Assembly: GCF_008831285.2 (NCBI RefSeq)
Contig: NC_045140.1
Span: forward strand, 24,260,131 to 24,324,130
Source of the DNA: Nymphaea colorata
Taxonomy: Eukaryota > Streptophyta > Magnoliopsida > Nymphaeales > Nymphaeaceae
Length of the DNA: 64,000 bases
Direction of reading: 5' to 3'
Part shown: positions 3,251 to 16,830 of the stretch, piece after piece
How positions within the stretch are numbered: the stretch's first letter is position 1
Layout: each line of letters starts with the position of its first letter
Program-made: the position numbers and the translations under genes
The notes under the pieces: model-generated
What the model was told of the DNA's origin: nothing
Database searches by the model: none
What the model saw: the letters and a program-made list of their open reading frames with translations, nothing else

Positions 3251-5127
3251 ATGTGCAGGCCACCATCTCCTCCTTCTGCTTCCTCCTCTTACCTTCTCTT
3301 TCCAGACGAAAATCGTCATCTCCCCATCAAAGCCACGTCCTCCCTCTCCGACCACGATGACTCTCATACTCTCCACAAGTGGCCTGCTTTCTCTGAGGTA
3401 AAACAAGTTATCCACATTTCTTGCTTTTTTTTTTTTCTCTCTCGTGAACACACAAACATACACGAAGATGATGAATGCCCACAAGAGTGGCATGCTCCCA
3501 ACTTTGTAAAATTATGTATTCCCCATTTCTGAGAAGCCAAAGGCCGAATGAAGTGGACAATTGAGATGTAAGATTGAAAAGAGCAAATTGGTGAAGAGGG
3601 ATAACCAGAAAAGAGTGAGATATGAGTATGAGAGGCGACTTGGTTGTGTTGCTGCAGGTGGTGGAGGAGATGGCGTCCATCAGCAAGATCTCGGGACCGA
3701 CCTTACTGACGGGACTGCTGCTCTACTCCAGAGCGATGATATCCACGATCTTCCTGGGCTACCTGGGTGAGCTCGAACTTGCCGGTGGCTCGCTAGCAAT
3801 CGGCTTTGCAAACATAACGGGTTATTCCGTCATATCTGGTCTGGCGATGGGGATGGAGCCCTTCTGCGGCCAGGCCTACGGCGCCCAGCAATGGAAGCTT
3901 CTGGGCCTCGTTCTGCAGCGCACCGTGCTCGTTCTCCTCTCCGCCTCGCTGCCAATCTCCGCTCTGTGGGTCAACATTCACCGCGTCCTTCTCTGGTGCG
4001 GCCAGGACGAACGCATCTCCTCCACAGCTTCCACCTTCGTTTTGTTTTCTCTTCCCGACCTCGTCTCCTTCTCTTTGCTCCACCCTCTGCGCATCTATCT
4101 GCGCGCGCAGAATATTACCTTCCCTGTGACGCTCTGCTCCGCCATTGCCATCGTCCTCCACCTCCCAGCTAACCTGCTTCTGGTTGTCTATCTCAAGATG
4201 GGCGTCGCCGGCGTGGCTCTCGCCTCCGCCTGGACGAACATCAACATGGTGGTGTTGCTCGTGGCGTATCTCTGCCTCTCCGGCGTGTACCGCCGCTCGT
4301 GGGTGGCGCCCGGCCGGGACTGCCTCCGCGGGTGGGGTGGGCTGCTCCGGTTGGCGGTGCCGACTTGCGTGTCAGTCTGCCTCGAGTGGTGGTGGTACGA
4401 AATCATGGTGGTGCTCTGCGGGCTGCTGGCGGACCCAAAGGCGACGGTGGCGTCGATGGGGGTGCTCATCCAGACGACCTCGCTCGTGTACGTCTTCCCA
4501 TCGGCGCTCAGCCTCGGCGTCTCGACTCGGGTAGGGAACGAGCTCGGAGCGAACCGGCCGGGGAGGGCTCGGCTCGCCGGGTTGGTGGCGATGGGTTGCG
4601 CGGCAGCGCTCGGCCTCTGCGCCATGAGTTTCGCTGTGGGGATGAGGCACAGGTGGGGCCGTCTCTTCACGTCGGACCCGCAGATACTGGCGCTGACGTC
4701 TGCAGCGTTGCCCATCGTGGGGCTGTGTGAGCTCGGCAACTGCCCGCAGACCACCGGCTGCGGCGTGCTCCGCGGCTGCGCCAGGCCATCCGTGGGCGCC
4801 AACATCAACCTCGGCTCCTTCTACTGCGTCGGCATGCCCGTGGCCATCCTGCTCGGCTTCGTCGCGGGAGTCGGCTTCCGGGGACTCTGGCTGGGCCTGC
4901 TCGCCGCGCAGGCCACGTGCGCCCTGGCCATGATGTGCGTTCTCGTCAGGACCGACTGGCAGCTCCAGGCCGAGCGGGCCAGGGCGTTGATGGGGAACGC
5001 TAATGAAGATGGTGGCGGAGGCGGCGGCGATGGTGGAACCACTGAGGTGGTGGTGGACGACGGCGGCCGTCTGGGGAGTGCAGATGATGTTGAGAGTGAA
5101 GCTGAGCCGTTGATGAGTCATGTCTGA
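3251..5127 (+). CDS. MATE (DTX) efflux carrier, ADP1/DTX48-56-type clade
   Basis: Two exons, 3251-3397 and 3658-5127, join in phase 0 (CTCTGAG|GTAAAA ... TTGCTGCAG|GTGGTG) to give 538 aa, about the family's usual length. Exon 1 is a 49-residue hydrophilic N-terminus; exon 2 carries the multi-pass membrane body. Family landmarks are EPFCGQAYG (116-124), CLEWWWYE (290-297), STRVGNELGANRP (338-350) and CGVLRGCARP (417-426). The acidic Gly-rich tail ends SEAEPLMSHV. Known relatives are proton-coupled exporters of organic compounds on endomembranes or the plasma membrane; several affect growth and leaf ageing or move abscisic acid. The substrate here cannot be read from sequence. The start ATG is the first after the TATA box. 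Exon 2 is strikingly GC-rich, so long antisense frames across it are shadows. Confidence 0.93.
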
Positions 5128-5305: not shown

Positions 5306-6665
5306 ACCAAAAAGTTTCCCCATTTCCGTTTCTCTCATCGTTTCTGTTTTAACCGTTCTTGCTTTATCCTTCTTAGTGTTGCTCTTCCCATGTTGTTGAA
5401 CAGGGAGATTGAAGATGCGGTTCAAGGGCCAGACAGGCCATCTGATGCGTGTCAGGTTAAGAGAAAGAGAGAGAGAGAGAGAGACTGTGAGGGCCGAGTG
5501 GAGTCCTGCTTGAGTGTGGTCTCCATCTTCTTGGCCAGCTCAATATAAGTTCCCTGAAAGGGCTAAAAGAAAAGGCAGGTTCCTAATGAAGTTCTGCTAA
5601 CATGCATGGTCAGTGTTTGCTCCCCATTTGTAAATTTCCTTTTCTTGTTATGGTGGGGTTTGTTCTCTCCAAAAATATCTCCTCTCTGTGTTTGTTCTCT
5701 TCTCACCTTAAAGACCGGTTGCTTTCTTTTAACAGGCAAAGCAGCCTCGTGACTGTCACTAATTTCGTGGGGACGTCGTGTATTCCAATCTCAAGCAAGC
5801 ATCATTCGAACGGATTTAAAAAAATGCTTACGTTATGTGCTAGCTAATGAAGTGCTTAATTTCTCTTGGAGTAAAGGAATTAAGAGAAGAAAGAAATCTA
5901 GATCCATAGTTCATATGAAGATCACATTGATCAGAGAGACAGGTTAACTAATTACCCTTTAAGCAAGGAAATTGAGATCGCTAATGAACGGTAGAAATCG
6001 ATAATTATCGAACAAGCAGATGAAAAGAAAAGGGTGGGGAGGAGGTCGACGCTATTCTTGGTCTGCATTAAATATTCTATATGAAAACTGTGACGATCTG
6101 CCGATGGATGAACATTGAAAATGGTAAGATTGTAGAGAGGTAGGTGCAGTAAAAATCCTGTCCCTTCTATCGAAATCATGAAGAAGCAAAGAGCTGCGCG
6201 GGTGGCTCCGGCAACTGCACACGGCACAGTTGCGGGCACTTCCAAAAGCCCTCTCATTCGGCACACTGTGGTTACCTAGAATAGCCATATGTTCCCAAAC
6301 CGGCGACATCTCTGTCCTCCGTCCACGTATAAAAGTCCTAGCATCCAGATCTCCACATACCACAGAGAGAGAGAGAGAGTATATTGCATAAAAGCCAACG
6401 AGAGAGAGAGCATCATGAACGTGAGCATGTCATACAGATCATTTTCTCAGATGCCATTATTAAGTTTTGTAAGGATTTCAAAAACTTGATTGCGAAAACT
6501 TTTATGCTTATGAAATTATTATCCACTTGGGGAAAAAGGCTCGACTTGGATGTTGATCTCTAAATGAATGTTATCGATAACACAGGCTTTGCAAGTTATA
6601 AAAGAACAAAGTCGCAAGGATAAGGTTCACCAAGGTGTGCTGGACATAAGAGAGAGAGAGAGATA
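5306..6665. other. intergenic, no gene seen
   Basis: No supported coding region. It holds GA microsatellites near 5462-5483, 6363-6379 and 6649-6662. Short frames show no family features. Confidence 0.45.
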
Positions 6666-6775
6666 GGATGCAACTTTCCACAAGGTCATCCATCTCAGTG
6701 CTACTTTTATCCAAGCATGCTTAACTTTAGAATTTTGATGGAATCTAATGCATTATTATGTGCATGTGTGCGTGT
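6666..6775 (-). pseudogene. decayed 5S rRNA-like sequence, copy 1
   Basis: Read on the minus strand, this matches plant 5S rRNA over most of its length. The internal promoter region reads AAGTTAAGCATGCTTGG (5S: AAGTTAAGCGTGCTTGG), followed by a match to the GAGTAGTACTAGGATGGGTGACC region as AAGTAGCACTGAGATGGATGACC, and an end TTGCATCC (5S: TTGCACCC). Nearly all differences are C-to-T or G-to-A, as expected of methylated decaying DNA. Part of the GTCCTCGT stretch near the 3' end is missing. It is not a functional 5S gene. A second copy in the same orientation starts 287 bp further on. Confidence 0.75.
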
Positions 6776-6952
6776 AGGGGGGGAGAGAGAGAGAGAGAGT
6801 ATTAATCAACATGACTAAAAATAAGTCGCTCCCATTAGGATGTTGGAAGGACTACAACGCTCCCATCGAACTGATCGGAGAGAAACAAAAACCACCAACG
6901 AAGGAAGAACAACATATGATGGCAACAACAGTTGACATACCCCAACAAAACC

Positions 6953-7052
6953 ATCTACAAAGTAGAACTTTTCAGGAGGTCACCCATTTCAACACTGTTT
7001 TTACCTATGCACACTTAACTTGGGAGTTGTAATGAGATCCAATGCATTATTT
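6953..7052 (-). pseudogene. decayed 5S rRNA-like sequence, copy 2
   Basis: On the minus strand it contains ATGGGTGACCTCCTG exactly as in plant 5S rRNA, AAGTTAAGTGTGCAT for the internal promoter region, and TAATGCATTGGATCTCATTA for the 5S TAATGCACCGGATCCCATCA. Changes are again mostly transitions. A (TA)n(GA)n microsatellite lies directly against its 5S 5' side. With copy 1 it could be the two LTRs of a Cassandra-type TRIM or two units of a dead 5S array. Confidence 0.75.
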
Positions 7053-7053
7053 C

Positions 7054-7104
<51 letters not shown>
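7054..7104. repeat. compound (TA)n(GA)n microsatellite
   Basis: About 20 bp of TA dinucleotides run straight into about 30 bp of GA dinucleotides, beside 5S-like copy 2. Confidence 0.95.
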
Positions 7105-7108
<4 letters not shown>

Positions 7109-7236
7109 ACTTGTAGAATGTAAAAGTACTCATATAAACTATATTCAGTAATCCAATTCCATTAATCTAATACAGTGACTTACGTTCTGCCATATTATAA
7201 GTACTAGTTTTCCAAAATGCGTGCATGCACACAAAA

Positions 7237-7261
7237 AGAGAGAGAGAGAGAGAGAGAGAGA
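7237..7261. repeat. (GA)n microsatellite
   Basis: Pure AG dinucleotides. They are preceded by GTGCATGCACAC and followed by ATTATCAAC. The GA tract after 5S-like copy 1 is preceded by GTGCATGTGTGCG and followed by TATTAATCAAC, so this may be a further fragment of the same repeat. Confidence 0.8.
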
Positions 7262-8253
7262 TTATCAACGCTGTCATTTCTGTTGCTTAACCTTCTTCAT
7301 AATGTTGTTCTTGAAAGTAAACTCAAACGCATCAGGTACAAATAGCAAACTTTCGAGCCAATCTATGCATGTAAATGTGAAAGTTCAATATAATTAGTTC
7401 TTAACATGCAAACCATGCTTTTGCTTGAACGAAATTTGAAAATCATGGTTCCTATACATGAAATTTGAGGGCTCTCTAACCCAATTCTGATCCTTCGACC
7501 CGCTGAAAAGCAATTGGATGTAAGAACTAGTTTGAACTAAACCAATTTTGAGTCTTAGGATTTCGAACCAGAAATGTGGAACTATCTGTTTAACTTTGTC
7601 CTCTATTCCTCTCCCCCGATACATGGAAGTATCAGATTCATTCTTTGAACGTTTCTGGCATCTTCTCATTCACCATTATATGTTCCTTTTAACGCATAGA
7701 TCAGATTCTAAAAGTTCGAACAAGTTTTTTATCAACAATCATAATCTTTTTTAACAGATAATTCAGTTTAGACGTTAAATAACAGTGGTAGGCACTTATA
7801 TGAAAAAATGTTTGTGATTGTTCTTCATTTTACTTTAAAACAGTCCAAGTTAGCTCATTCATACATGTTGAATGGCCCTAGAGATCCAACTTCAATTTCA
7901 TGGCAAACAACATAATTATATGATGCATTACTACATGACATATTTTAAAAGTTTATATATACCCCGTGCATCTATGACATAATGCGCATGTCACAAGTTC
8001 AACACTCCCAATGATGAGCGACTATGTTTCTTCTGATGAAACCATAGATTACTTCCCTTTCCCCACTCCGAATTCCTACAGTTTTTGTCATTCATTCCTG
8101 TACTTGTGTACTTGTTACCCTCTCAATCTCTCGATCGACATGTTTTCAGAGGAAACTCTTTTCTTTACCGTGTGGAGCCAACTAAAAAGAAGCCGACAAA
8201 GGCTCCTTCCTCTCTGCGTGTGCGCCACGTCTCCATGTTCGGCATCCTCTCAC

Positions 8254-11091: not shown

Positions 11092-11181
<90 letters not shown>
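11092..11181. repeat. compound (TA)n(GA)n microsatellite
   Basis: About 49 bp of TA and 41 bp of GA, the longest compound microsatellite in the window. It begins 23 bp beyond the foldback element. Confidence 0.95.
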
Positions 11182-14100: not shown

Positions 14101-16830
14101 CTACTGCAGCAACAAGGAAGCCAAGACACTCTGTCAGGTCCATGATCTAATACGGGTCTGACGATTTAAACTTGGATTTCTTTGAAGATGCAATGAATTA
14201 CGTTATTCGCCTAAAAGCACGAAAGATTTGATTCTGGAACTAGTGGCCATCTCAATCAGTGAATACGTAGCTAGTGATCTCTTGACAGTTTAATGTCTGC
14301 AAATAATTGAGGAGATCTTTAAAATGGCACATAGCTAGATGTCAGCAGCTGTTGGAACCACAGAGAATAGCACCGAACTCAATAATGCCCTCGTTTCATT
14401 CCTGCAGTCCTATAGCAGGAACGTCTGTGTTTGTATCGGGAGGGCATGTCTGCATTCATGGTAAGTTTAGTGCGTAATTTGCCTTCTCAAACCTTAGTTC
14501 CGGAATTCTTTCGTGCAACCAAAAGTGTCCAATTTCTTGAATACACAAGAAAATTCCTTCTCTCGAGAATCCACATGAGAACCTAGTAAGGACATATGAA
14601 GGAGCTGAATTGGTTCTTTGGCACCATCACCATGAGGCCCTGTGCTCATCGAAGGCGATGACCTGATGAAGAAAAACCCAGATTCCATTACCATCCATGC
14701 GTGATCAATAAATTTTGATTTCGAAAGTTGGATTTCTCCAACAGTATTGTCATTTAATCCCCTCACTTTGCATTGATATTATATTGTTAATTGAATTCTG
14801 CCAAATTTCCATGCATATTGTTCTGTGGAACTTCATGTATTAGTTTTGGAGAGGGAGGTTTCGGATATTGTGATCTGATGCAGAGTGTCGTTATCTTCAG
14901 AACTTTTCCACAAACAGGCTATGTAATTTACATTTACATGATTTTCCATTACCATACAATTACTTGGTCCACTGGTTTTGAAGTATAGGAAACTTGAGGT
15001 GAAGCGCATTTTGCAAGTGACAAAACAGGCAATGAAGATAGCCGCTGGGGTCACCAAAGCGGTTATCAGGAGTAAAGGAAAATATGCGAATGCAGCTTCA
15101 CTTCAAAGCATTTTTCTTTAAATTTATTGATTAAATCAGGATTTATTTCATGCATATTCACTATATATAGAGTATAAACAATTCATGTATGAAAAACTTG
15201 GTCGTTTCCCTCACCAGGAAAAGAAGTCATTCCACAGGTGCATTTACAGAGGAGGGTGCCCATTGAGAAATCCGACCCTGCGACGGTGCTAGAAAAACAA
15301 AAGGCCTTCTTTCAAGAACCATAATGTGTTACTAAAACTTGATTGGAGATTAATCGTGGTTGGGTAGCCAATGGAATGCCCTCGATTACCATGAGAAGGC
15401 GATTATATATTACAAATTATTTTTCTCCCCTCAATCCAAACTGTCAAATTGGATCCATACAGAGAAGATTAGCATATGACATGCACAAAATGAGAAATGG
15501 TCCAAATCCACCATAGTCATCTTTCCATCAACTCATATTGTTTACCATGCTAGTAAAAAACATATTCTGTGTTTAAAAATTTCACGGCCGACTATGTTTT
15601 ACATTTTTTAGAAACCATATATCCAATTGAACACGAACACAATCAGGTTCAGATAGAATCCAAAACAGCCAGAAATTGCTCAAGAACCACTTCTCTGAAT
15701 CCAATCAATGTCCTGGATAATGGTTTCTATGCACCCTTTCTCTCAATCCTTGGCTTAAGTGACTGAAATACCAACGCCGTATGTTTGTTCTGCACTTCCC
15801 TGGGAATAAGAAAATGTGGGAGTTTTGAGGCTTCATATCCAAAACATGACCTTGTTAGTAGGATATGAATCCATGTGAAAACCATCTTGGCGTGGTTGAA
15901 TTGTTTGTTACCCAAAACTTACAAGGGCGCGATTAGTTGTTTAGGCAGAATGTCAATGACATGGTATTGAAAACACTGTGTTACTCTTTATTTTAACGAA
16001 GGATCAGGAAAAATGTAGACTACTAATTCCCATGGAAATTGCTGGGAGATACGGTCTCCACCTTCATTGCTAAAAAAAAAAACATGTATATAAAAAAAGA
16101 ACTAGGCTACTAATTCACATGTCCATATTTTAAGAGAGACTGCTATGGCACAACAAGAAGTGATAAAAATCGAACCTCAAAATTGTGATCAAAGAAATCA
16201 AACACATTCATGTTATATCTTAGACAGGGCACCTCAGAGGAGGTGTGGTTGAGTCTTTATTCCTATGGGTATTACTCTTTTCAATTGCAAAAGGTGGTAG
16301 ATGATACTTTCAAGTTGAAGAGAGTAACTCTAAGTTCATTTAGGTCTTGATGCAGCTCCTGACCCCGGAGGTAGGAGGAACGAGAGAAAGGCTTTGACCT
16401 CTCATTGGGCACCCGGAGTCGCTGTCTGACCCAAACGCCTTAACTAGAGTGGTTACATACAAGTTCTAATCTCATTGTGGCATTTTGAGACCTAGATTTC
16501 CATCTAGGTTGCACCTCCTACAATGTTGAGACGAGTGTTGTAGGTATGGCAAGTTAAATCAATGTGTATAAATCTCTTATACGCTCAAAGCTGAAGCTAC
16601 AAACTTCTGTCTGGGGGGCACTAATACTTCAAATTAAATAATATGTAAATCAGAAGATACCTATGAAGTATTAATATATAAATAAACAATTTGCATGGGT
16701 ACATGTAGGCAATCACTGGCACAAGCCCACGTATGCCCCCACTACTACGTGTGAAGGGCTTAGCCATTTGATAAACACACCTCAACCTTGTGGTGATTGG
16801 CAAATTCAACCCCAATAATATCTTCCTTAA
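11182..16830. other. intergenic, no gene seen
   Basis: About 5.6 kb of AT-rich sequence. Its frames are all short, on both strands, without recognisable domains or consistent splice sites. A slightly less AT-rich patch at 16330-16620 may be an old retroelement fragment, but it has no repeat partner or motif that proves this. Confidence 0.45.

Follow-up and report, generated by a model that had tools for sequence, protein, structure and literature searches.

In a window of 64,000 nucleotides from Nymphaea colorata, two dead 5S-promoter modules lie in an intergenic stretch, on the minus strand, at 6672-6757 (copy 1) and 6966-7051 (copy 2), each corresponding to 5S positions of about 19-104. They are most likely remnants of Cassandra-lineage LTRs that have diverged or been reshuffled, a reading to which we assign a probability of about 0.5. 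Derivation from Cassandra is the most that we claim for them, as the best reading of their origin rather than a proven one. The pair is not filed as a Cassandra element, because homologous LTRs, a primer-binding site (PBS) and element ends with a target-site duplication (TSD) all fail. Both copies look dead and ordinary.

The first-pass annotation had described two minus-strand 5S-like sequences and named an Infernal/Rfam 5S scan as a check, and the scan bears the description out. Copy 2 matches RF00001 at 6952-7068 (minus strand, model positions 1-120), passing the gathering score of 38 with 43.7 bits; with 64 kb searched for 4227 families, its E-value is 9.2e-06. Copy 1 matches at 6667-6766 (minus strand, model positions 10-110) with 34.6 bits, below the gathering score; its E-value is 4.3e-05 when 1.2 kb are searched and 0.0023 when the search covers the whole window. 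A chance match as the source of the 5S likeness is rejected on the cmscan E-values of the two hits. No third match to the Rfam 5S model was found in the whole window up to an E-value of 5. The two cores are identical at 63 of 86 positions without any gap, with 19 transitions and 4 transversions between them, and their offset is 294 bp, which replaces the 287 bp given previously.

Decay of the cores was assessed against an angiosperm 5S reference of 119 positions; the oligos printed in PMC5974128 and PMC6397220 bear out all of these but 11. Where UP46 and the reference have CACTAATGC, probe ang_1 has CACTAAAGC, and position 49 is A in the published angiosperm probe and C in Arabidopsis-type 5S. 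Relative to the angiosperm reference, 22 of the 86 core positions are changed in copy 1 (20 transitions, 18 of these changes being C>T or G>A) and 23 of 86 in copy 2 (19 transitions; 16 C>T or G>A), so the earlier remark that the differences are nearly all transitions stands. Neither copy retains any of the four CpGs of the 5S core. Decay by C>T and G>A together with loss of CpG would be the usual mark of methylated, unselected repeat DNA.

Some of this change may predate the separation of the copies. Ten changes to the same state are common to both, against about 6.8 expected when changes are shuffled within sequence contexts (P 0.035; the same context shuffle gave P 0.014 with Arabidopsis-type 5S, before A was placed at position 49). 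Without C20A, for which the alignment of copy 1 is unsure, nine shared changes against 6.8 are no longer significant (P 0.12). Two of the changes in common are not of the deamination type (C20A and A80G), which has a P of 0.012, and of 0.18 for one or more. Three-point distances give the copies a common stem, leading away from the 5S gene, of about 0.16 changes per site. Host 5S could already carry two of the shared states, as positions 67 and 80 are variable in the gymnosperm probe printed in PMC5974128 (Y, C/T, and R, A/G, respectively). Taken together, the sequences lean weakly towards a common 5S ancestor that had itself already diverged, which is what Cassandra would predict.

The Cassandra consensus given by Kalendar 2020 (PMC7215508) has box A RGTTAAGYRHGY and box C RRRATRGGTRACY separated by an 18-nt gap. 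In copy 2, box A (AGTTAAGTGTGC, 7009-7020, minus strand) and box C (GAAATGGGTGACC, 6978-6990, minus strand) both agree exactly with this consensus; in copy 1, box A (AGTTAAGCATGC, 6715-6726, minus strand) is exact and box C (GAGATGGATGACC, 6684-6696, minus strand) has one mismatch, and in each copy box A stands 18 nt ahead of box C. The promoter words quoted for the two copies in the earlier annotation are present. No further pair of box A and box C, with up to two mismatches each and 15-25 nt apart, occurs in the window. The motifs themselves do not discriminate Cassandra from 5S genes, because the angiosperm 5S sequence fits them too. Within the boxes 8 of 50 cells are changed, a lower rate than the 37 of 122 found elsewhere in the cores (one-sided Fisher P 0.037), and such a contrast is what a promoter maintained amid drift would show. 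Copy 2 has a T4 run within 30 nt past box C. One could imagine that this copy is still a TFIIIA binding site or the source of a short Pol III transcript, retained amid drifting surroundings because it influences the neighbouring MATE gene region, but we give this idea next to no credence.

The 5S pair sits about 1.5 kb beyond the MatE open reading frame. This transporter frame (3619-5127, plus strand) runs uninterrupted for 502 codons and lies in a GC-rich stretch, with 55% GC over 4-6 kb. Elsewhere in the window, among nine translated ORFs that were scanned, coatomer beta domains were found at 29.3-33.8 kb (minus strand) and an aldo/keto reductase exon at 22.7 kb. Such gene content would mark the window as nuclear DNA of a plant. 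A U6 snRNA-like sequence at 15417-15511 (plus strand) scores 36.9 bits, below its gathering score of 44, and combines an exact AUACAGAGAAGAUUAGCAU run with a 15-nt internal deletion; it is probably a U6 pseudogene.

If the copies belonged to one LTR pair, or to a homogenised 5S array, the sequence beside the core should match the likeness of the core itself. This is not the case. Extension from the two core edges, with simple repeats masked, gave a score of 0 on each side; among 150 random anchored pairs the mean score was 2.5 and the 95th percentile 8. When flanks were simulated with 27% substitutions, all 400 trials (100 at each of four indel:substitution ratios from 0 to 0.2) came out above that percentile, although these simulations are somewhat easier than the real flanks because they were drawn from unmasked window sequence. 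Free local alignment of the flanks, with 300 random pairs each, was likewise unremarkable (P 0.19 for the 3' flanks, 0.97 for the 5' flanks). No homology could be detected between the intervening stretch (6767-6951) and the sequence beyond either copy, in comparisons with 6380-6666 (P 0.22) and with 7069-7360 (P 0.96). In a fixed-lag scan of 6200-7400 at lags of 270-310 bp, requiring at least 14 identities in 20, the cores appeared at lag 294 and everything else was a match between GA runs. Homology between the copies therefore ends at the core edges, at 5S positions of about 19 and 104. The flank tests strongly lower the standing of a readable LTR pair, as the flank and spacer tests do that of a homogeneous 5S array.

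The first-pass annotation had offered a Cassandra-type element or a dead 5S array: the 5S origin and the decay survive from this proposal, whereas the single element with an LTR pair fails the tests applied to it, and the array fails the spacer test and has no third unit in the window. For the single element, copy 2 would belong to the 5' LTR and copy 1 to the 3' LTR, and the short flanks would have been erased by microsatellite growth and deletions. Two copies in one orientation, 294 bp apart, are what such an insertion would leave, and 5' of both copies an alternating pyrimidine-purine stretch is followed by a CT run. Even so, flank extension of 0 has to be set against simulated flanks that were detected in every trial, and the tandem periods of Cassandra listed for the species of Table 2 in Kalendar 2020 (PMC7215508) are 377-537 bp, so that 294 bp falls below all of them. 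We regard a single insertion as improbable and largely refuted.

The best site for the PBS TGGTATCAGAGC in the 250 nt scanned past box C of copy 2 has 5 mismatches in 12, in line with the earlier remark that there was no clear primer-binding site. On the copy 1 side, TGGCATCTGAGA at 6456 (minus strand), some 227 nt beyond box C, has 3 mismatches to the PBS, which is weak evidence for a 250-nt stretch, because 39 of 852 window segments of 200 nt have a site with at most 3 mismatches. TG...CA ends with an exact 5-bp TSD, a further check named in the earlier annotation, gave no candidate within 250 bp, either for the pair or for either copy as a solo LTR. The search took exact, non-simple duplications only, so that an old, decayed TSD would escape it, and its outcome says little, because with a null mean of about 0.24 chance alone often gives none. 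The best pair of 16-nt LTR starts has 9 identities and the best pair of LTR ends 10; in 200 random trials of the LTR-start type the best was mostly 9 or 10.

The GA microsatellites add little to the comparison of the flanks. AG runs of at least 6 units (12 nt) number 11 in the window, all with the purines on the plus strand and none as CT; they spread over 5466-40026, with 9 of the 11 crowded into 5.4-11.2 kb. At 5 units there are 12 AG runs versus 2 CT runs. It is true, as had been pointed out, that GA repeats sit at the same side of both copies, but this is uninformative, copy 1 having GA runs on both sides in a region full of them. The likeness of the 5' flanks, a pyrimidine-purine stretch and then a CT run, is in our judgement microsatellite background. 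Nor would a polypurine tract ahead of a 3' LTR be distinguishable from these AG microsatellites. A compound microsatellite at 11093-11181 consists of (TA)24 followed by (AG)21, an order that also occurs next to copy 2 (7053-7104).

The main rival to the Cassandra reading is that the copies are two dead 5S rRNA genes, either a stray array fragment or separately dispersed pseudogenes, with spacers that drifted apart or were replaced, either before the genes died or afterwards. A spacing of 294 bp is an ordinary 5S repeat length, near the 311-bp steps of the oat 5S ladder described in the Fig. 1 legend of PMC7215508, and a common orientation is natural for an array. The ends of the gene are harder to find. 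In tests that used the Arabidopsis-type reference (C at position 49), in-register agreement over the opening 18 nt of 5S was 7 of 18 for copy 1 and 4 of 18 for copy 2 (chance mean 4.4, 95th percentile 7), and over the last 15 nt it was 3 and 4 of 15, respectively (chance mean 3.6), which is about chance; neither copy is a complete 5S gene from 5' to 3' end in register. The Rfam model does align end to end on copy 2, where the sequence under the 5' end is an AT repeat. Following copy 1, a 9-nt exact run, GTTGCATCC (6666-6674, minus strand), is a candidate remnant of the extreme 3' end of 5S: it equals the 3' terminus of angiosperm 5S and is joined to the core via an apparent 8-nt deletion. Against the same Arabidopsis-type reference, a 9-nt run of this kind was reached in 0.015% of 20000 random 30-nt stretches, a figure that is suggestive only, because the run was spotted after the alignment had been seen. 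On its sequence, GTTGCATCC would favour either a 5S gene or a Cassandra whose 5S region is long.

Compared with 5S rRNA genes and pseudogenes (RF00001), the locus is thus alike in its Rfam match, in the possible 3' terminus of copy 1 and in the 294-bp spacing; it is unlike them in the unrecognisable 5' end, in the 22 and 23 changes per 86 positions, in spacers without homology and in having two units only in the window. Neither would plain post-mortem decay be expected to leave fewer changes in the promoter boxes. We consider an origin from dead 5S genes possible, if rather doubtful.

A double insertion of some other 5S-derived retroposon, for instance a SINE with a 5S head, would explain why homology is limited to the promoter-bearing head, and 5S-derived SINEs do exist (SINE3, PMC10886601). 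The body after the head would be expected to be common to the copies as well, yet the 3' flanks have no significant likeness. Moreover, we know of no 5S-derived SINE in plants, and an origin of this kind seems very unlikely. P5SM is a 5S mimic inside the TFIIIA gene; such a mimic was rejected as a candidate here, as a C2H2 zinc-finger regular expression had no match in the six frames of the window.

Remnants of Cassandra-lineage LTRs remain the reading that we prefer. Under it, the LTRs would already have diverged from each other or been reshuffled, leaving only the conserved 5S core alignable. In a live element, RNA would have been transcribed from within the LTR, where box A, the intermediate element and box C would have served as the docking site for TFIIIA and brought in Pol III. 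Binding of TFIIIA and recruitment of Pol III by these boxes are established for 5S genes and for Cassandra. The copies would then have decayed as methylated, presumably silenced DNA.

Cassandra LTRs are described as having a neat-bordered 5S core of about 70 bp (PMC10853983), and by this analogy the confinement of homology to the 5S core would speak for a Cassandra origin. The variable motifs of Cassandra keep their length, and the core at this locus is likewise free of indels between the copies. With Cassandra TRIMs as characterized in PMC7215508 and PMC10853983, the locus shares box A, the 18-nt gap and box C, the indel-free core and the common orientation, and it differs from them in its strong decay and in having no homologous LTR flanks, PBS in place, LTR ends or TSD. 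Against the Cassandra reading, two independent insertions in the same orientation within 300 bp would be unlikely a priori, the extreme 3' end of 5S may survive in copy 1, which fits a 5S gene too, and no PBS, LTR ends or TSD were found. Searches of viral-contig and genome-contig collections, neither of them a plant collection, gave no match for plant 5S or Cassandra.

By itself the locus is of little importance, as an example of 5S-derived promoter modules that are recognisable despite far-reaching decay. Copy 2 illustrates that a decayed relic can pass the Rfam threshold for a 5S gene. If the two copies represent different Cassandra subfamilies, they would, but only together with the other copies in the genome, bear on whether Cassandra had one origin or several, a question raised in PMC10853983.
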